From NCBI GenBank assembly GCA_016938155.1, contig JAFGVF010000159.1:1-16983 (forward strand): a DNA stretch of 16,983 nt. Reading direction: 5' to 3'. The first letter of the stretch is position 1; each line of letters begins with the position of its first letter. The DNA comes from Candidatus Cloacimonadota bacterium. Lineage in GTDB: Bacteria; Cloacimonadota; Cloacimonadia; Cloacimonadales; JAFGVF01. The translations under genes and the position numbers were made by a program. The notes under the pieces are model-generated. The model was not told the DNA's origin. It saw only the letters and a list, made by a program, of their open reading frames with translations, and did not search any database. Shown here one piece after another: positions 995 through 13,244 of this stretch.

Positions 995-3109
995 ATGGGG
1001 AATAATCATGTTTGGCAATTTTCACGAGTTGGTGGAATAAATCGCGTAAATCTTACAAGTGGTGAGGATTTACTTCATCTTGATAGTCTGGATCAGAAAT
1101 TGTGGACAGCCTTGAGTTGTCCGGTTAATGGATTAGAAATTGATAGTCAGACTCTTAACCTCATTGATACAGACAATGACGGCAAGATCAGGGTACCGGA
1201 AATTCTGGCTGCCGTGAAATGGCTTTTACCCTTGATAAATAATGCTGACGATTTGATTAGTCGCAAAAAGTCAATGCCACTCTCAGCTATTAAACAAAGT
1301 ACACCTGAGGGCAAAACCCTTTTTGAGGCTGCCAAACAGATTCTTATAAATCTCGGTAAACCGGATGCAGCAGAGCTTAGCATTGCTGATGTTTCTGACT
1401 CTATTGCTATCTTTGCCAATACAAAGTTCAATGGTGATGGTGTCATCACAGACATTTCAACCGATGATGAAAAGCTCAAAGGTTTAGTCGGAAAGATTAT
1501 AACAGCAGTTGGTTCTGTTCAGGATAGAAACGGTAAAGCCGGTATATCTGAAGCTGAACTTAACAATTATATTGCACTTTGCACAACTTATTCCGCCTGG
1601 CTGGATAAGGCAGAAACTGATAAAGAGACTATTCTTCCATTCGGTGATAAAACAGAGGATGCTTTCAATCTATTCTCGGCCCTCAAATCTAAGATTAATG
1701 ACTATTTTCTCCGTTGTCGCCTGGCTGAGTTTGACCCTCAATCGGCTGTGATTTTGAATACACTTACAGAGGAATTTACAAGTATAAGTAAACAGGATGT
1801 ATCCACCCGACTTGAGACTATTGCCGAATTCCCACTCGCTAAGATTGAAGCGAATAAGCCCTTATCGTTCATCTCCCCTATAAATCCCGCCTGGGCTGGA
1901 AAATTAGGGAAACTGCAAACCCTGATGGAAGAGATTTCGGCAAAACCGGTTGAAAGCATTACCGAAGATGAATGGAAATCCTTAACAGATAAATTTGCAG
2001 CCTATAATGCCTGGAAAGCCGAGTTCAGTAGTGCCGGGGTATTAGGTGGAATCGAAGAAGTAAGAGAGTTTCTGGCATCCGATGAGAAAGAACGGCTTCT
2101 ATCTCTGATTCAACTGGATAAGGCTGAAGAAACCAAAGCTAATAGTGTTTTTACAGTAGAGAAACTGGTCAGATTCTACTGCCACATTTATACGCTTCTG
2201 AATAATTTTGTGACCTTCACAGATTTCTATTCACCTGATAAAAATGCTATCTTCCAAGCCGGAACCCTCTATTTCGACCAACGCAGTTGTGAGTTGTGTA
2301 TCAAGGTCTCCGATATGGGCAAACAAGCAAAAATGGCTGCCTCGAGTGGAATCTGCCTGGTATATTTTGATTGTGTTTCTAAAGTAAAAAATGAGAAGAT
2401 GACAATTGTAGCAGCATTCACTGATGGTGATGTGGATGCACTTGAGCTTGGACGAAATGCAATTTTCTATGATAATAAAGGACTGGATTGGGATGCAACT
2501 GTCGTAAAAATTGTCGATAATCCTATCAGCATCAGACAGGCTTTCTGGTCACCTTATCGTAAACTCGGTAAGTTGATATCCAAGCAGATGGAGAAGATGG
2601 CATCCGCCCAGGAAGCGAAGGTGGACAGTGCCTCAGCAGCAGGAGTAGCTGCCGGCAAACCGGCACCATTCGACATCGCAAAATTTGCGGGTATATTCGC
2701 AGCCATAGGATTGGCAGTTGGAGCAATCGGTACTGCTCTCGCCTCTCTCATTGGAGGATTTTTAGCCCTTGTCTGGTGGAAAATACCTTTAGTGTTGATC
2801 GGTATAATGCTTTTGATTTCCCTTCCTTCCATGTTTATGGCATGGATGAAACTACGCAAACGCAACCTTGCCCCTATCCTTGACGCGAACGGCTGGGCGA
2901 TAAACGCCAAAGCAACCATCAATATCCCATTTGGAACATCCCTAACTCATCTGGCAAAGCTGCCTAAGAATTCCAAACTGAACCTGCATGACCCATTCAA
3001 GAAAAAGAGAAATCCGATTTCTGTTATCATTATGATCCTGCTACTGATAGCGGTAGCTCTGGCACTATTGTGGAGATTGGATGTCATTTCCCGATTGGGA
3101 TTAATGTAG
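995..3109 (+). CDS. EF-hand protein with C-terminal transmembrane helices
   Basis: The 704-residue product is not a family I can name. A textbook calcium-binding EF-hand loop occupies residues 58-69 (DTDNDGKIRVPE, with D1, D3, D5, G6, I8 and E12). A second, degenerate loop is at 177-188 (DRNGKAGISEAE), and an acidic NGDG turn sits near 146-149. There is no N-terminal signal peptide. Residues of about 200-480 are soluble and mostly helical in character. Residues of about 563-620 hold two closely spaced hydrophobic helices (a Gly/Ala-rich one, then KIPLVLIGIMLLISLPSMF) followed by KLRKR. A last helix lies at about 675-694, ending a few residues before the C-terminus. The large N-terminal part therefore probably faces the cytoplasm, anchored by the tail. 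Start choice: ATG 995 with AGGAGG nine bases upstream. It is monocistronic: own promoter (925-953) and terminator (3133-3162). Calcium binding is an inference from the loop. Confidence 0.85.
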   Translation: MGNNHVWQFSRVGGINRVNLTSGEDLLHLDSLDQKLWTALSCPVNGLEIDSQTLNLIDTDNDGKIRVPEILAAVKWLLPLINNADDLISRKKSMPLSAIKQSTPEGKTLFEAAKQILINLGKPDAAELSIADVSDSIAIFANTKFNGDGVITDISTDDEKLKGLVGKIITAVGSVQDRNGKAGISEAELNNYIALCTTYSAWLDKAETDKETILPFGDKTEDAFNLFSALKSKINDYFLRCRLAEFDPQSAVILNTLTEEFTSISKQDVSTRLETIAEFPLAKIEANKPLSFISPINPAWAGKLGKLQTLMEEISAKPVESITEDEWKSLTDKFAAYNAWKAEFSSAGVLGGIEEVREFLASDEKERLLSLIQLDKAEETKANSVFTVEKLVRFYCHIYTLLNNFVTFTDFYSPDKNAIFQAGTLYFDQRSCELCIKVSDMGKQAKMAASSGICLVYFDCVSKVKNEKMTIVAAFTDGDVDALELGRNAIFYDNKGLDWDATVVKIVDNPISIRQAFWSPYRKLGKLISKQMEKMASAQEAKVDSASAAGVAAGKPAPFDIAKFAGIFAAIGLAVGAIGTALASLIGGFLALVWWKIPLVLIGIMLLISLPSMFMAWMKLRKRNLAPILDANGWAINAKATINIPFGTSLTHLAKLPKNSKLNLHDPFKKKRNPISVIIMILLLIAVALALLWRLDVISRLGLM

Positions 3110-8371: not shown

Positions 8372-8740
8372 ATGTCATATAATATAGACTTCTCAGTAGC
8401 ATCCTGTAAACAGATCGAGTCGGCACTATGTTCTCGATTGGAACAAATCAGACTCTCTCGGAATTTAACGCAATCTGAATTAGCGAATGAAGCCGGAGTA
8501 TCCGTAAGGACTATAACTAGAATGGAGAAAGGGGAAGGTATTTCCCTGAATACATTCATAAGAGTACTTACAGCTTTAAATATCCAACAAAACCTTGAAC
8601 TGCTACTTCCTGATCCCTCGGTACAACCAATTGAGCGAGTTAAGAATAATAATGGAGAGCGTAAAAGAGCTCGATCCAAGCAATCAACTAATGGTAAAAA
8701 GAACTGGGTATGGGGAGAAGAGGAGATAAACAATGGATAG
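8372..8740 (+). CDS. hipB: HipB-type antitoxin, XRE-family DNA-binding protein
   Basis: The 122-residue protein carries an XRE helix-turn-helix at about residues 22-75 (LEQIRLSRNLTQSELANEAGVS, then VRTITRMEKGEGISLNTFIRVL). A basic linker (ERKRARSK) and a C-terminal WVWGEEE tail follow. In the characterised E. coli HipB the flexible C-terminal tail, including a tryptophan, contacts the HipA toxin; a similar role here is inference. It would bind the toxin and repress the operon through the palindromes at 8236-8335. The start codon is 14 bases after AGGAGG, with an alternative view that translation begins slightly downstream unlikely because no other nearby ATG exists. The 3' end overlaps the toxin start by eight bases, a typical coupled antitoxin-toxin order. 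Confidence 0.88.
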   Translation: MSYNIDFSVASCKQIESALCSRLEQIRLSRNLTQSELANEAGVSVRTITRMEKGEGISLNTFIRVLTALNIQQNLELLLPDPSVQPIERVKNNNGERKRARSKQSTNGKKNWVWGEEEINNG

Positions 8741-10034
8741 TAATGCCAAAGTAAATCTTTGGGGAAGCACTATTGGTGCTATCTCATGGTTGGAAGATAA
8801 AGGGATAGGAGTCTTCCAGTATGATCCGGATTTTGCTGAAAGCAATATCCGGTTAGCACCTCTGATGATGCCGTTAAGTAAATCACCGTATTCTTTCCCG
8901 GTTCTGTCAAAAGAGACATTTAAGGGCTTGCCCGGGATGTTGGCGGATTCTCTTCCTGATAAGTTTGGAAATGCAATCATTGATGCCTGGCTTGCTTCAG
9001 AAGGAAGAACTAAAGATAGTTTCAATCCTGTTGAAAGACTTTGTTACATAGGCAAGCGAGGAATGGGAGCTCTCGAATTTGAACCATCTTTACATGATAC
9101 ATCGAAAGACTCATCTGCTTTGGAAATAGATAGACTTGTTGATTTAGCGAACAGAGTTCTTAATGAACGGTCAACTTTGGAGGGTGTGTTTTCCGGTGTG
9201 GATGATCATAAGGTAATTGAGGATATCCTAAGAGTCGGTACATCAGCCGGTGGAGCAAGGGCAAAGGCAATTCTTGTCTGGAATCCCACAACCAATGAAT
9301 TCAGATCCGGTCAGATTGATGTTGATTTCGGGTTTGAGCCTTGGATTATGAAATTTGATGGTATATCTAATTCAGCAGGCGGTACCTTTATTGATTCATC
9401 AGGTTATGGGAAAATTGAATATGCTTATCATCTTATGGCTATCGATGCCGGAATTGATATGACAGAATGCCGACTCCACTATGAAGGAGGACGAAGTCAC
9501 TTTATGACCCGGAGATTCGACAGGACAATTAACGGAGAAAAACTTCACATGCAGTCGTTAGGAGCTATGGCTCACTATGATTATCTGCAACCTGCAAGTT
9601 ATTCATACGAACAGGCGATTCAGGTAGCTAAAAGATTAAAGCTTTCCCAGGATGATCTAAACCAGCTCGTACTAAGGGCTATTTTCAATGTCATTGGCAG
9701 AAATCGGGATGACCATGTAAAAAACATAGCCTTCCTGATGAACAAAACCGGAGAATGGAAGCTTTCTCCTGCATACGATATGATCTATGCTTGGAATCCA
9801 ACCGGTGAATGGACCAGTAAACACCAAATGAGTGTTAATAGTAAACGAGAAAACATAGAAAGGTCAGATTTGATAGCCTTTGCTGATAAAGCCAATATCA
9901 AGCAGAGAAAAGCTAATGAAATGATAGATAAAGTTATAGTTACATTCCTAAAGTGGGGAGGTTTCGCTGAACAAGCTAAGATCAATGAAAGCAGGATTAT
10001 GGAGATTAAGAGGAATCTGTTAATAAGGTTGTAG
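8733..10034 (+). CDS. hipA: HipA-family serine/threonine kinase toxin
   Basis: The 433-residue product is the length expected for HipA (440 in E. coli). Features in order: an N-terminal couple_hipA-like region (residues 1-110; LWGSTIGAI, LPGMLADSLPDKFGN and NPVERLCYIGKRGMGALEF are characteristic); the glycine-rich ATP loop GTSAGGARAKA (169-179); the catalytic segment NRDDHVKN (324-331), with the HipA-type catalytic Asp and Asn; and the metal-binding Asp in LSPAYDM (D349). Family members of this branch usually read GGARPKA, so A replaces P here. All other key residues are present, so the kinase is probably active. Known HipA toxins phosphorylate glutamyl-tRNA synthetase and stop growth; the substrate here is unknown. 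The ATG has GGAGAAGAGGAG upstream and overlaps hipB by eight bases. It converges with the HNH gene, 28 bases apart. Confidence 0.92.
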   Translation: MDSNAKVNLWGSTIGAISWLEDKGIGVFQYDPDFAESNIRLAPLMMPLSKSPYSFPVLSKETFKGLPGMLADSLPDKFGNAIIDAWLASEGRTKDSFNPVERLCYIGKRGMGALEFEPSLHDTSKDSSALEIDRLVDLANRVLNERSTLEGVFSGVDDHKVIEDILRVGTSAGGARAKAILVWNPTTNEFRSGQIDVDFGFEPWIMKFDGISNSAGGTFIDSSGYGKIEYAYHLMAIDAGIDMTECRLHYEGGRSHFMTRRFDRTINGEKLHMQSLGAMAHYDYLQPASYSYEQAIQVAKRLKLSQDDLNQLVLRAIFNVIGRNRDDHVKNIAFLMNKTGEWKLSPAYDMIYAWNPTGEWTSKHQMSVNSKRENIERSDLIAFADKANIKQRKANEMIDKVIVTFLKWGGFAEQAKINESRIMEIKRNLLIRL

Positions 10035-10062: not shown

Positions 10063-10788
10063 CTATTCTCTATTTTTTTCACCATCTAATATTGCCTTCA
10101 TAACAGGTTTTGCTCCTCGTCTTGAGTTGCATTGTAAACACGATGTAACGAGATTATCATAAGAGTTATCACCTCCTTGACTAACAGGTTGAATGTGGTC
10201 TATTGTCGCACTAAATCTTGTTAATTGCATATCACAGTAGTAGCATTTGTAATTGTCTCTTTCAAATATTCTTAACCTATTCTCAATGATATTATAATAA
10301 TCTAATTCTTTATGGGGATCAACAAAAGGTTGCTCAGTGATCTTTACTTCTGCAATTCTTTTTTGGCAGATTTCAATTTCTTCTGGCAAGACTAATTTAT
10401 ACAATGTTCCATCTCTATTCGTATCTCCAACCTTTTTTATCGCACCTTTTGTAATTAACCCATTTAATGCTTTTTGAACTGCACCATAACTAAGGCTTTC
10501 TGATTGCCCAGAACTAGAAGTTAACACTTGTTTTACGTTTCCCAACCCTCTTGTACTAACACGTATATATTCATTACCATTCTTAATTATAGAATGTCTG
10601 AATAAATACCAATAGATTCCAGCTTCATAGGGTAATAAGAGAGGTTGTAAATAATCAACGATTGATTCAACAATCTCTGGCAATTCGAAAAGATCAAAAG
10701 ATTCTTTAAACGATTCTCCATGTTTCATTTCTGATTTTCTTTGAATGTCATCAAGCAAAGTTTGTATTTTTCGTATCTCTTCTTTCAT
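10063..10788 (-). CDS. HNH endonuclease with N-terminal winged-helix-like region
   Basis: The C-terminal ~60 residues form a zinc-type HNH nuclease: CYYC (residues 182-185), IDHIQPVSQGGDN (D197, H198), DNLV with N212, and CLQCN (217-221). This is the McrA-like HNH layout with two CxxC pairs, and all metal and zinc ligands are present. The N-terminal ~150 residues resemble a winged-helix or replication-initiator-like DNA-binding fold (YEAGIYWYLFRHSII, then SYGAVQKALNGLITKGAIKKV), an inference from pattern only. The start is taken as ATG 10788, three codons inside a longer GTG-started frame (10797), because AAGGTG at 10800-10795 is well spaced for it; this gives 241 residues. It could be a homing, phage-derived or restriction-type nuclease. 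Its position next to hipBA and a RAYT suggests an accessory or defence role. No methyltransferase is nearby. Confidence 0.85.
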   Translation of the reverse strand: MKEEIRKIQTLLDDIQRKSEMKHGESFKESFDLFELPEIVESIVDYLQPLLLPYEAGIYWYLFRHSIIKNGNEYIRVSTRGLGNVKQVLTSSSGQSESLSYGAVQKALNGLITKGAIKKVGDTNRDGTLYKLVLPEEIEICQKRIAEVKITEQPFVDPHKELDYYNIIENRLRIFERDNYKCYYCDMQLTRFSATIDHIQPVSQGGDNSYDNLVTSCLQCNSRRGAKPVMKAILDGEKNRE

Positions 10789-10928
10789 AATATGCACCTT
10801 TTCTACAAAACAACATTGTGTGTAAATCTATAAACAGTTAATCTCATTTTTTATGACGCTAGCAAGTAATGTGTTCATTCGAATAACTACTCCCACAACC
10901 TGTGTATTTTTTAACATTTTTTGTCAAC

Positions 10929-10992: not shown

Positions 10993-11175
10993 ATTACAAA
11001 TATATCATTTTCCTCGTGCTGGATTGTGTGTTTGATACCAGTTTATAAAAATAAATCCCAGAAGAAACCCGTTGATTCGAGCTGTCAGTCCCCTGCCAAT
11101 TAATAGTATGAATCCCTGAGTCCAGGGTATCGCTAACTAGAGTATTTATCTTCTCGCCTTTGATGTTATAGATAT
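10993..11175 (-). pseudogene. detached C-terminal sorting domain (gene remnant)
   Basis: The minus strand encodes about 60 in-frame residues (NIYNIKGEKINTLVSDT, then SGIHTINWQGTDSSN, RVSSGIYFYKL, KMIYL, TAA). They align almost residue for residue with the C-terminus of the GLUG protein at 4002-5363. Nucleotide similarity runs from about 10990 to 11175 and then stops abruptly at a palindrome-rich stretch. There is no start codon, ribosome site, signal peptide or upstream body, so this is the 3' end of a former secreted-protein gene. Its frame is undamaged and its own terminator (10929-10959) survives, which suggests recent truncation. The NYPNPF part of the domain is missing. Confidence 0.8.
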
Positions 11176-11185
11176 TACTCTTGGA

Positions 11186-11343
11186 AGTACTGCTTTAGCC
11201 GTACTCCTGAATAATCTGAGGAGTTAAAGCTCTTCTTACTGTCCCCTTATCGCACTCGAATAATTCCTAAAACTAAGTTACGATTCGCTTTCCCCTATCT
11301 TTGTACATTCCTGCCCTCTAGGCCTGGAATGTACCAGGATAGG
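11186..11343. repeat. nested inverted repeats beside the gene remnant
   Basis: AGTAC/GTACT and CTCCT/AGGAG hairpins lie at about 11186-11225. A larger one spans 11294-11343: CCTATC (11294-11299) pairs with GATAGG (11338-11343), GTACATTCC (11303-11311) with GGAATGTAC (11326-11334), and GCC with GGC at its tip. There is no T-tract and no coding frame with protein-like composition. The rest of the 11176-11400 gap shows nothing I recognise. Confidence 0.6.
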
Positions 11344-11400
11344 ACTAAGAAAGGGACAGGATACTATTTGGAATTAAAGCAGTGAGATATGGGAGATATA

Positions 11401-11589
11401 GGAGTGCATCATCTGCGTTGATGCGGGATTTACTTTGGAGTGCATCGTCTGTGCCGATGCGGGAATTGGTTTTGGACTGCATCATCTGTGCCGATGCAGG
11501 AATTAGTTTTGGAACTGCATCATCTGCGTTGATGCAAGATTATCTGCCGACTTCGTCAGCAGGAATTGACACAGTCAATTCACTCCATA
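11401..11589 (+). repeat. REP/BIME array 1 (four A hairpins, B, C)
   Basis: Four tandem A hairpins begin at 11405, 11441, 11478 and 11516 (period 36-38): arms TGCATCA/TGATGCA or TGCATCG/CGATGCA around a TCTGYGY loop, each preceded by TTGGA-type sequence. They are followed by hairpin B (11544-11562, CTGCCGAC TTC GTCAGCAG) and hairpin C (11563-11581, GAATTGAC ACA GTCAATTC), then ACTCCATAA. The same order recurs in three further arrays around the RAYT gene. Just downstream at 11637-11654 is a GCGGACA/TGTCCGC hairpin with GGGA loop, matching one at 7938-7955. Confidence 0.85.
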
Positions 11590-11716
11590 ACTCCATAAAA
11601 ACCTACCAAGATCAGCTCATGAATAGATTCATCATTGCGGACAGGGATGTCCGCGTACCCAAATCTCCGAAATTCTTCTCTTCTTTGATCTTACAATCAC
11701 GTACGGTCATAGTGTT

Positions 11717-11871
11717 GCCCTTTAGGGAGTCTGGTCAAGACGAGTAGATGACGGTTTGGTAACCCGTAGGCCTCCCGTTGGCCACCCGTTGAAGGCAACG
11801 AATTGTCCACAAGTGGTGGATAACTTAGCTTAGAGAAGGAAAATCGTCTTGACCAGACTTCCTAAAGGGGC
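11717..11871. mobile_element. MITE-like element with ~26-bp inverted ends
   Basis: The left end (11717-11743, containing CTGGTCAAGACGA) is inverted at the right end (11844-11871, containing TCGTCTTGACCAG), with one mismatch and one extra G over about 26 bases. The ~100-base interior is non-coding and contains CGTTG/CAACG and TCCAC/GTGGA hairpins and three CCCGT repeats. No target duplication is evident. It lies between REP arrays 1 and 2. Open frames through it have no ribosome site. Confidence 0.55.
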
Positions 11872-11900
11872 GTAGGCATTCACTGATAGCTTGGGAGTGT

Positions 11901-12055
11901 TTGGAGTGCATCATCTGTGTTGATGCGGAAATTGGCTTTGGATTGCATCATCTGTGTTGATGCAGGGATTGCTTTGGGAGTGCATCGTCTGTGCTGATGC
12001 AAGTTTTTCTGCTGACTTCGTCAGCGGGAATTGACACAGTCAATTCACTCCATAA
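11901..12055 (+). repeat. REP/BIME array 2 (three A hairpins, B, C)
   Basis: A hairpins begin at 11907, 11944 and 11981 (period 37). Hairpin B is at 12009-12027 (CTGCTGAC TTC GTCAGCGG) and hairpin C at 12028-12046, followed by ACTCCATAA at 12047-12055. The array ends only four bases before the RAYT stop codon. Confidence 0.87.
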
Positions 12056-12058
12056 AAC

Positions 12059-12595
12059 CTAAAAGTCATCGTCTATATGGACTCTATCAATCGGATAATT
12101 CAGCATAATCTCTTGAGATTCTATATCTTCCGCTCTAAAACGATAAATGTAACTACCATATATCCATTTCTCAGGACTTTCTACATACCCATGTTTCACC
12201 GGATTATTCCAGATATAATTTAATCGACAGAAGTAGGATTTTTCATAAGTGATACAAGTGTCCCAATAGTTATGGAAGTATTTGCTCTCAATCCTGGGAA
12301 TATTATGACTTGATAACCAATTAGCAGTGAACCTGGTAAGATTGTGCATTAAATCAGACAATGTCTTAACATTTTCAGGAGCAGTTGCCATAAAATGAAG
12401 ATGATTATCTAAAATAACCCAATCTGCCAAATTCCAATTGAAATGCTGTATCGACTGTATAAGATATGCTAGAGTTGCATCTTTTGTTGAATCTGATTTA
12501 AGATATCGATGTCTTCCAAGAGTCGAGACTGTAATGAAATACTTAGCATCAGGAACAAAAAGATGTGGAGGATTATGCTTATATTCTTTATACAT
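12059..12595 (-). CDS. REP-associated tyrosine transposase (RAYT, Y1/HUH family)
   Basis: The 178-residue protein matches the IS200-like Y1 transposase fold of RAYTs. Residues H65-L-H67 in VILDNHLHFM form the HUH metal site. The catalytic tyrosine is most likely Y127 in RLNYIWNNPVKHGYV, whose NPVK(x)G signature is diagnostic for RAYTs. The KYFHNYWDTCI segment before it also fits. N-terminal YFITVSTLGRHRYL is the usual first strand. Known RAYTs are domesticated single-copy HUH nucleases that bind and cut REP hairpins as single strands. The gene starts at ATG 12595 with AAGGGG at 12606-12601. It is flanked immediately by REP arrays 2 and 3, whose GGAGT feet both point towards it. Motifs are intact and length is normal, so the protein should be functional. 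An overlapping 92-codon frame on the plus strand is a shadow. Confidence 0.93.
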   Translation of the reverse strand: MYKEYKHNPPHLFVPDAKYFITVSTLGRHRYLKSDSTKDATLAYLIQSIQHFNWNLADWVILDNHLHFMATAPENVKTLSDLMHNLTRFTANWLSSHNIPRIESKYFHNYWDTCITYEKSYFCRLNYIWNNPVKHGYVESPEKWIYGSYIYRFRAEDIESQEIMLNYPIDRVHIDDDF

Positions 12596-12614
12596 TAGTG
12601 CCCCTTATATTGGT

Positions 12615-12737
12615 TTGGTTTGGAGTGCATCGTCTATGCCGATGCGGAAATTTGCTTTGGACTGCATCGTCTATGCCGATGCAAGCTCTTCTGCTGGCTT
12701 CGTCAGCGGGAATTGACACAGTCAATTTACTCCATAA
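12615..12737 (+). repeat. REP/BIME array 3 (two A hairpins, B, C)
   Basis: A hairpins begin at 12626 and 12663 (loop TCTATGC, a variant of TCTGTGC). Hairpin B is at 12691-12709 (one T-to-G/A change, CTGCTGGC) and hairpin C at 12710-12728, then ACTCCATAA. It begins about 20 bases upstream of the RAYT start codon. Confidence 0.85.
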
Positions 12738-12845
12738 TTTACTCTACATAAATCCATAAATCCATACAACCAATATTGCAATCAATCCAAGCTATGTCAA
12801 ACATCTTTTTTAATCAATGAGCAAAAAGACCTCTGATTTGGAGTG

Positions 12846-13000
12846 GTTTGGAGTGCATCATCTGTGCTGATGCAAGAATTAGCTTTGGGAGTGCATCGTC
12901 TGTGCCGATGCAAGTTTTTCTGCTGACTTCGTCAGCGGGAATTGACACAGTCAATTTACTCCATACCCTTTGAGAATTGACACAGTCAATTCACTCCATA
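12846..13000 (+). repeat. REP/BIME array 4 (two A hairpins, B, C, extra C)
   Basis: A hairpins begin at 12854 and 12892, B is at 12920-12938 and C at 12939-12957, followed by ACTCCATA. A second, isolated C hairpin is at 12974-12992, also followed by ACTCCATA. The 12738-12845 gap between arrays 3 and 4 shows no gene or structure I can name. Confidence 0.85.
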
Positions 13001-13016
13001 GAACTCCATATTATGC

Positions 13017-13048
13017 AAAAAAGCCTTTCCACTTTCGTGAAAAGGCTT
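13017..13048 (-). terminator. rho-independent terminator of the tRNA-Asp transcript
   Basis: On the minus strand, AAGCCTTTTCAC, a GAAA loop, GTGGAAAGGCTT (12 bp with one G-T pair) and a T6 run. It begins four bases after the CCA end of the downstream tRNA. Confidence 0.9.
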
Positions 13049-13051
13049 AAA

Positions 13052-13128
13052 TGGCGGGAGCGACGGGACTCGAACTCGCGACCTTCTGCGTGACAGGCAG
13101 ACGTTCTAACCAACTGAACTACGCCCCC
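13052..13128 (-). tRNA. tRNA-Asp (GTC), second copy of the pair
   Basis: The minus strand folds as a standard 77-base cloverleaf. The acceptor GGGGGCG pairs with CGCTCCC (one G-T), the D-arm contains AGTTCAGTTGGTTAGA, and the anticodon arm CTGCC / TGTCACG loop reads GTC, decoding Asp. The T-arm contains GGTTCGAGTCC-like GAGTTCGAGTC, followed by discriminator G and an encoded CCA. It is identical over all 77 bases to the copy at 13168-13244. Confidence 0.97.
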
Positions 13129-13167
13129 AAAGGGTTTATCTTAAGAGCATGCGACCAATTTAAAAAC

Positions 13168-13244
13168 TGGCGGGAGCGACGGGACTCGAACTCGCGACCT
13201 TCTGCGTGACAGGCAGACGTTCTAACCAACTGAACTACGCCCCC
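13168..13244 (-). tRNA. tRNA-Asp (GTC), first copy of the pair
   Basis: Same 77-base sequence as 13052-13128, with anticodon GTC and encoded CCA. It is promoter-proximal, and a 39-base spacer separates the two copies. No terminator lies between them, so they are probably cotranscribed and end at 13017-13048. Confidence 0.97.

Follow-up and report, generated by a model that had tools for sequence, protein, structure and literature searches.

A probable REPtron with GGAG-footed hairpins in a Cloacimonadota draft genome

Results

The locus and its surroundings

The window, meaning the whole stretch of 16,983 nucleotides analysed here, is contig C417 of a draft genome of 2.38 Mb (427 contigs, 72% complete). 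Positions 11401 to 13000 contain four arrays of hairpins and a gene for a REP-associated tyrosine transposase (RAYT), located between the second and the third array (Table 1). Array 2 ends 4 bases from the RAYT stop codon. The Cloacimonadota setting, proposed from the sequence alone, is borne out by the RAYT protein, for which the best match among the named loci compared is that of Candidatus Zophobacter franzmannii (80%).

Table 1. Coordinates of features at the RAYT locus
Feature	Positions	Strand	Components and remarks
Stretch before array 1	11320..11389	+	81% copy (70 bases) directly before the dispersed pair on C49
Array 1	11401..11597	+	A 11406-11424, 11442-11460, 11479-11497, 11517-11535; B 11546-11560; C 11563-11581; ACTCCATA twice
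Array 2	11903..12054	+	A 11908-11926, 11945-11963, 11982-12000; B 12011-12025; C 12028-12046; ACTCCATA
RAYT gene, 178 aa	12059..12595	-	H65xH67, catalytic Y127, N131
Array 3	12622..12736	+	A 12627-12645, 12664-12682; B 12693-12707; C 12710-12728; ACTCCATA
Array 4	12850..13000	+	A 12855-12873, 12893-12911; B 12922-12936; C 12939-12957; ACTCCATA; lone second C 12974-12992 with ACTCCATA
Two tRNA-Asp genes, tandem	13052..13244	-	just upstream of RAYT, same strand; beside array 4

Rfam models at gathering cut-offs detected nothing in the window but the two tRNAs. A tRNA-Asp gene is also located just upstream of the RAYT at the related locus L063, and comparison of the two tRNA-Asp regions disclosed no matching protein gene apart from the RAYT; tRNA-Asp may be a site shared by these loci. 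Between arrays 1 and 2, inverted repeat arms of 26 bases enclose 100 bases in a MITE-like arrangement (11718-11869), and weaker copies of its inner part occur on C361, C76 and other contigs. At about 11030-11220 (- strand), where no ORF of at least 80 aa was found on that strand, a C-terminal sorting domain has left a remnant that contains no REP pair. Further off are a toxin-antitoxin pair of HipB-like and HipA-like proteins (8372-10034, + strand), an HNH endonuclease (10063-10797, - strand) scoring far below the cut-offs of IscB and Cas9 models, and a 704-aa protein (995-3109, + strand) with no Pfam match at E 0.001.

The RAYT protein

The RAYT is intact, as the sequence-only reading had it. 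Its frame is open over 178 aa, and the protein exceeds the cut-offs of NCBIfam NF047646 (REP_Tyr_transpos; 91.7 bits, cut-off 80) and Pfam Y1_Tnp (30.1 bits, cut-off 23). H65, H67, Y127 and N131 are invariant across 46 homologues, and Y127 and N131 align to Y115 and N119 of the E. coli RAYT. All three marks of a RAYT are thus present, the HUH motif, the catalytic Tyr and Y---NP, here in the form YIWNNP. The majority consensus of the HuH motif in homologues is NHYH, in the window protein NHLH, and homologues carry HNPPHLF near the N-terminus. The predicted structure (mean pLDDT 90.8) has its best solved match in 4er8, a complex of the E. coli RAYT and a REP hairpin (E 4e-10, TM 0.70/0.75), followed by the IS608 and ISDra2 transposases. 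Protein search with the RAYT gave one match in this genome; a second Y1 gene, on C250, was found by the Pfam profile alone. Homologues numbered 353 at E <= 0.001, with details taken from the best 120, and the plasmid collection contained no RAYT match.

Organization of the hairpin arrays

Exact pattern counts agree with the initially reported 11 A, four B and five C hairpins in four arrays of the same orientation, and an exact search revealed no further occurrence of the three patterns anywhere in the window. All four arrays lie on the + strand and show a single order, A(2-4)-B-C-ACTCCATA. Within arrays, A copies are spaced 36-38 bases from start to start, in accord with the proposed period of 37 bases; slippage or recombination is the probable source of these repeats. 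When positions 11301-13100 were resampled 300 times by a first-order Markov model, the B and C patterns never appeared (3 and 5 in the real sequence, by stricter patterns), and a loose A pattern appeared 0.17 times on average, at most twice, against six in the real sequence. The five C copies vary at only one position, and each is followed by ACTCCATA. GGAGT is present on the first A in all four arrays and in three of the seven inner A copies, the rest having GGACT (2), GGATT or GAACT. Its absence from four of the 11 A copies counts against reading the locus as a REPtron.

The A copies at 11442 and 12893 read, in their own direction, GGAGT + GCATCG-t-C TGT G-c-CGATGC, a stem of 8 bp interrupted by a single mismatch and capped by a TGT loop. 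On the opposite strand, C is GGAGT + GAATTGAC TGT GTCAATTC, with the same geometry and no mismatch. This form of A is identical to reverse-complemented C at 18 of 24 bases, with GGAGTG and the TGT loop in common, and two stem positions are changed on both sides. Because of the shared foot and loop, the 18 identical bases and the two-sided stem changes, A and C are, by sequence, two variants of one REP in opposite orientation, and together A...C form an inverted REP pair (REPIN or minimal BIME). The common foot and loop rule out that A and C are unrelated hairpins. The sequence-only reading had set a three-hairpin composite apart from the two-REP BIME; the A...C pair itself is ordinary, while the addition of B and of extra A copies stands.

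Hairpin B (GC[TC]G[AG]C TTC GTCAGC in the window) sits in the spacer of A...C. It is lacking in the five dispersed pairs of this genome described below, which rules it out as an obligatory part. Its core, GACTT[CT]GTC, occurs in five of the 27 fetched elements not classed as coding (L189, L193, L195, L202 and L226, from genera g23 and g28); four of them show A, B and C, and L226 has B and C only. The same core is present beside a broken RAYT gene in genome G041 (locus L028), and the three-hairpin unit therefore recurs beyond the genus of the window. In the sister genome G001, different hairpins take the place of B in two pairs (L052 and L057). B may serve as a binding site or may, as a spacer, help the two REPs to fold separately.

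Covariation within this genome comprises two pairs only, and 60 of 500 shuffles were equally high; as this is too small to count, it was tested across genomes. In 83 distinct REP monomers (67 fetched elements and the window), 86.4% of stem cells pair, compared with 65.8% after shuffling of the 3' letters (maximum 68.5% of 500). At least two Watson-Crick types occur at seven of the eight stem positions, in an alignment where two A copies of the window were shifted by one base. On this sequence comparison, the REP turns over across genomes while its foot, length and pairing stay.

Copies elsewhere and association with the RAYT

Copies were expected beyond the window and were found. C followed by ACTCCAT has 10 matches with up to three mismatches, five of them outside the window contig, and the reversed control has none. 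The five belong to pairs on C160, C346, C154 (two) and C49, the C160 pair with two A and the C346 pair with a damaged A arm. The pair on C49 is at the end of its contig, and the occurrence of repeats at contig ends suggests that copy number is undercounted in the draft. With four arrays and five dispersed pairs in a 72%-complete draft it is low, which counts against the REPtron reading; REPs usually exceed 100 copies (PMC2817692, in the part available). Four of the five dispersed pairs are in no open frame over 87 aa, and the C346 pair is crossed by a 210-aa frame overlapping another ORF. For two (L007 and L009), the nearest start or end of an ORF is no more than about 25 bases away.

Genomes with and without the RAYT were compared by running the pair covariance model R1 (E <= 1e-5) and a RAYT search (E <= 1e-20) on 106 genomes of the order. 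Pairs were found in 18, a RAYT of this clade in 10, and both in seven. Pairs are thus present in 7/10 RAYT genomes and 11/96 others (Fisher p 1e-4, relatedness uncorrected), so that the co-occurrence expected from the sequence alone is seen, although 11 of the 18 pair genomes have no detected clade RAYT. Genome G002, of the same family, has neither RAYT nor pair. RAYT genomes without a model match at this limit are G031, which has two weaker matches, G037, which has its own array of other sequence with the same feet, and G099. The match in G039 is not pair-like when read by eye. At L028, the clade RAYT is broken into two frames and a three-hairpin pair persists beside it. The 11 genomes, the broken gene of G041 and the G039 match count against the REPtron reading.

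A GGAG foot at related RAYT loci

We examined hairpin feet around 84 RAYT loci, composed of the best 80 of 497, three relatives (L025-L027) and the window; L023 and L024 (contigs already represented by L060 and L063) and L028 (broken gene) were left out. Near the gene (within 500 bases), 170 of 432 hairpins have GGAG as their foot, against 12 of 350 far from it (stretches 2.5-4 kb off); Fisher p is 3e-37 and is indicative only, as hairpins within one locus are not independent. The next most enriched feet, TGGA and GAGT, overlap GGAG. GTAG is not enriched (13/432 near, 12/350 far), nor is GTGG (6 and 7). The loci therefore show the conserved tetranucleotide 5' of a hairpin that characterizes REPs in general, with GGAG in place of the canonical GT[AG]G. 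Among 172 GGAG sites, T follows in 150 and the usual context is TnTGGAGT; GT[AG]GGAG, the sign of a GT[AG]G-GA head such as Pseudomonas REPs have, occurs in just three. Six loci read by eye have related repeats adjoining the RAYTs of relatives.

At least one GGAG-footed hairpin was detected in 60 of the 84 loci and at least two in 43; the 24 loci without one by scan count against the REPtron reading. In a tree from which six of the 84 loci were dropped (stops or under 130 aa) and to which E. coli was added, 10 of the 22 rows without GGAG fall in one clade of 15 rows, mostly Chloroflexota. E. coli rayT is a partial control that works only with two mismatches allowed: the main settings (one mismatch, 6-base foot) gave one hairpin and no GTAG, while two mismatches gave 10 hairpins, with GTAG at three within a 6-base foot and, within an 8-base foot, GTAG at 6/10 and GGAG at 0/10.

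At 22 loci of more distant RAYTs within the order, stretches 250-850 bases from the match hold 134 hairpins; of these, 23 have GT[AG]G and seven GGAG. Two genomes carry both kinds of RAYT. In G031, the clade member L026 has GGAG at 6/8 hairpins and the distant L047 has GT[AG]G at 6/7. In G019, L048 has GT[AG]G at 6/8, and the clade member L027 has GGAG at 0/8 by scan; read by eye, L027 has GGAGT...ACTCC feet within a perfect palindrome. Because G031 and G019 each have both kinds, the tag seems to go with the RAYT clade rather than with the genome.

The corresponding protein segment was inspected at the guide residues discussed for E. coli, W94, Q95, E100, H101 and R104 (PMC6006769, in part). 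At the Q95 column, 73 of the 78 clade proteins have H, Y or W, and the adjacent residue is missing; D stands at E100 in all 78, N-Y-W-D-x-C is nearly fixed, and R104 is retained in 38. The GT[AG]G-flanked L044 and L048 keep WQ and DHxxR; of 20 more distant RAYTs, 10-14 are gapped at key columns and only these two were used. The altered segment would fit a changed guide.

Pairs inside proteins of relatives

Among the matches listed (at least 57) for G025, G027, G035, G045 and G056, we fetched 57 pair places. By a strict pattern, one turn of a C-terminal domain (example, ..GQKIKTL-ECIDCVDAASSQMMHSI-xWNG..) contains at least 34 of the 57 in frame, and a few more on reading; by genome they are 13/15 in G025, 13/19 in G045, 4/9 in G035, 2/4 in G056 and 2/10 in G027. 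The in-protein pairs (within L171-L229) are mostly 54 or 60 bases long and belong to the secretion-tail (sorting) domain of many secreted proteins. In all six host proteins scanned, Por_Secre_tail, FlgD_ig or CHU_C was matched, and every protein had one or more of these above cut-off. FlgD_ig has 82 matches in G025 and 126 in G045, so a minority of these domains carry a pair. The turn is about 12 residues long without a pair and about 17 with it, and the pair has therefore replaced the turn, not lengthened it only. Many hosts are also related upstream (among the 561 pairings of 34 proteins, 155 at E < 1e-3), so that repeated insertion and spread by duplication both fit. In four further loci (L064, L065, L075 and L136), GGAG-footed hairpins are in frame inside the RAYT gene, between the HUH and Tyr motifs, with coding like that of the sorting-domain pairs. 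Literature search found no paper on REP pairs in sorting domains among the matches listed.

Discussion

The locus is very probably a REPtron, a RAYT surrounded by its cognate GGAGT-hairpin REPs, and the sequence-only proposal to this effect has gained from the RAYT identity, the REPs on both sides, the dispersed copies and the related repeats at RAYTs of relatives. The anatomy, the inverted-pair relation, the dispersal, the GGAG foot at related loci, the retained catalytic residues and the fold are computed results. We infer that the RAYT probably copies and moves the surrounding repeats by binding, cutting and transfer.

In this mechanism, the REP unit would be GGAGT with an 8-bp stem and a 3-base loop, and REPs would act as inverted pairs, A and C on opposite strands (GGAGT...ACTCC), and the spacer between them may contain B. 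A REP would fold in a single-stranded region (lagging strand), where the RAYT would bind the hairpin with its GGAG guide, cut at a nearby dinucleotide by HUH/Tyr127 chemistry while remaining joined to the 5' end, and transfer the piece, by which pairs would spread between genes. As GGAG and GTAG end in the same two guide bases (AG), the cut is predicted at CT, the E. coli dinucleotide.

The repeats could instead be relics, or stem-loops kept by the host as terminators, mRNA ends or supercoiling sites, no longer moved by the RAYT. The small number of copies found, the 11 genomes with pairs and no detected clade RAYT, and the position of L007 and L009 beside ORF ends suit this explanation, but the open RAYT frame with its catalytic residues, the variation of the foot with RAYT clade and the near-uniformity of the window C copies speak against it, and we consider it unlikely. 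Another explanation takes A...B...C as a folded junction in which GGAGT pairs with ACTCC, making one structured DNA or RNA and not two REPs. All three + strand units that were folded close in this manner (z of -4.3 for array 2, -4.2 for C49 and -2.9 for C154a), and this closed fold and the constant GGAGT of the outermost A, compared with 3/7 inner copies, agree equally well with a junction and with a REP pair. Pairing of the feet is, however, without compensatory change (helix 1, 0/5 pairs changed on both sides in this genome), the extra C of array 4 has ACTCCATA but no A of its own, and spacers range from 1 base (L171) to about 60 (L212), which together make a junction improbable.

It is hardly credible that the locus is an insertion sequence of IS200/IS605 type with the flanking hairpins as its ends. 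The Y1 HUH fold and the closeness to the IS608 and ISDra2 structures would be expected of such an element, but IS200 transposases have a Y---Q motif (PMC6006769, in part) and the window protein has Y---NP. Moreover, its top NCBIfam match is REP_Tyr_transpos, the genome has a single match, and neighbouring ORFs scanned (HNH, HipA, HipB-like, glycosyltransferases) include no TnpB.

Beyond the REPtron itself, we advance a broader and tentative proposal, which we hold to be nearly but not quite evenly balanced: a RAYT branch of many phyla would read GGAG and not GT[AG]G, with a matching change of the segment to [WF][HYW]-NYWDxC, and in relatives of the same order pairs would repeatedly have become the same sorting-domain turn in many secreted proteins, a mobile repeat supplying a standard protein part. 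The GGAG branch, which at least one genome has together with a GT[AG]G RAYT, would be a natural experiment on how a RAYT recognises its own REP and cut site, and the in-frame pairs would indicate that REPs can turn into lasting, recurring parts of proteins.

REPtrons, BIMEs and REPINs are already known, as are REPs within genes; the new point is the GGAG tag that replaces GT[AG]G. In the parts of the sources available, REPs flanking RAYTs carry GT[AG]G, with CnGA in class 3 and an "atypical" subclass 2.6 (PMC6006769), and REP recognition and cut site have been worked out in three systems, all with GTAG (PMC8266576). Among the literature matches listed, no RAYT paper has a word beginning with GGAG or GGAGT. 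In the available main text of PMC6006769, PMC3733652, PMC8266576 and PMC2817692, no word starts with GGAG, the letters occurring inside longer REP sequences.

One of the closest known systems is the E. coli REPtron (rayT/TnpAREP with Y and Z REPs and BIMEs; 4er8), in which inverted REP pairs flank the RAYT as they do here. Common to both are a hairpin with a 5' tetranucleotide, the fold, the HUH motif, the Tyr and the Asn, and the stem bulge described for E. coli REPs in the source text available is comparable to the mismatch in the A stem. The window differs in its tag, GGAG and not GTAG, in a tag-reading segment one residue shorter with Q95 changed, and in its 8-bp stems, tandem A copies and third hairpin B in the arrays.

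As far as the available text of Quentin et al. (2018) goes, the clade resembles TnpAREP subclass 2.8 (eight proteins, Cyanobacteria in their sample), which has NHYH, W[YH], a proline-rich N-terminus and some REP insertions. At the W[YH] site the clade has W or F, then H, Y or W, and the REPs of subclass 2.8 have 5' GT[AG]G in contrast to GGAG here, a comparison by description and not by sequence. Subclass 2.4 (available in part) has double-foot REPs and REPs in frame in the transposase; here too both ends are footed and the hairpins of L064, L065, L075 and L136 are in frame, although the foot of 2.4 is GT[AG]G...C[TC]AC with a WQ motif, and here it is GGAG...CTCC. Some REPs of Pseudomonas and Xanthomonas (subclass 2.5) read GT(A/G)G-GA-G..., with GGAG letters near the foot (PMC2817692, in part); their conserved head is GT(A/G)G, against the rarity of GT[AG]GGAG noted above. 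Short in-frame palindromes are also known from Rickettsia RPE and other in-gene REPs, with one site common to recB of two species (PMC3733652, in part), whereas in the relatives studied here one identical sorting-domain turn is involved in many proteins.
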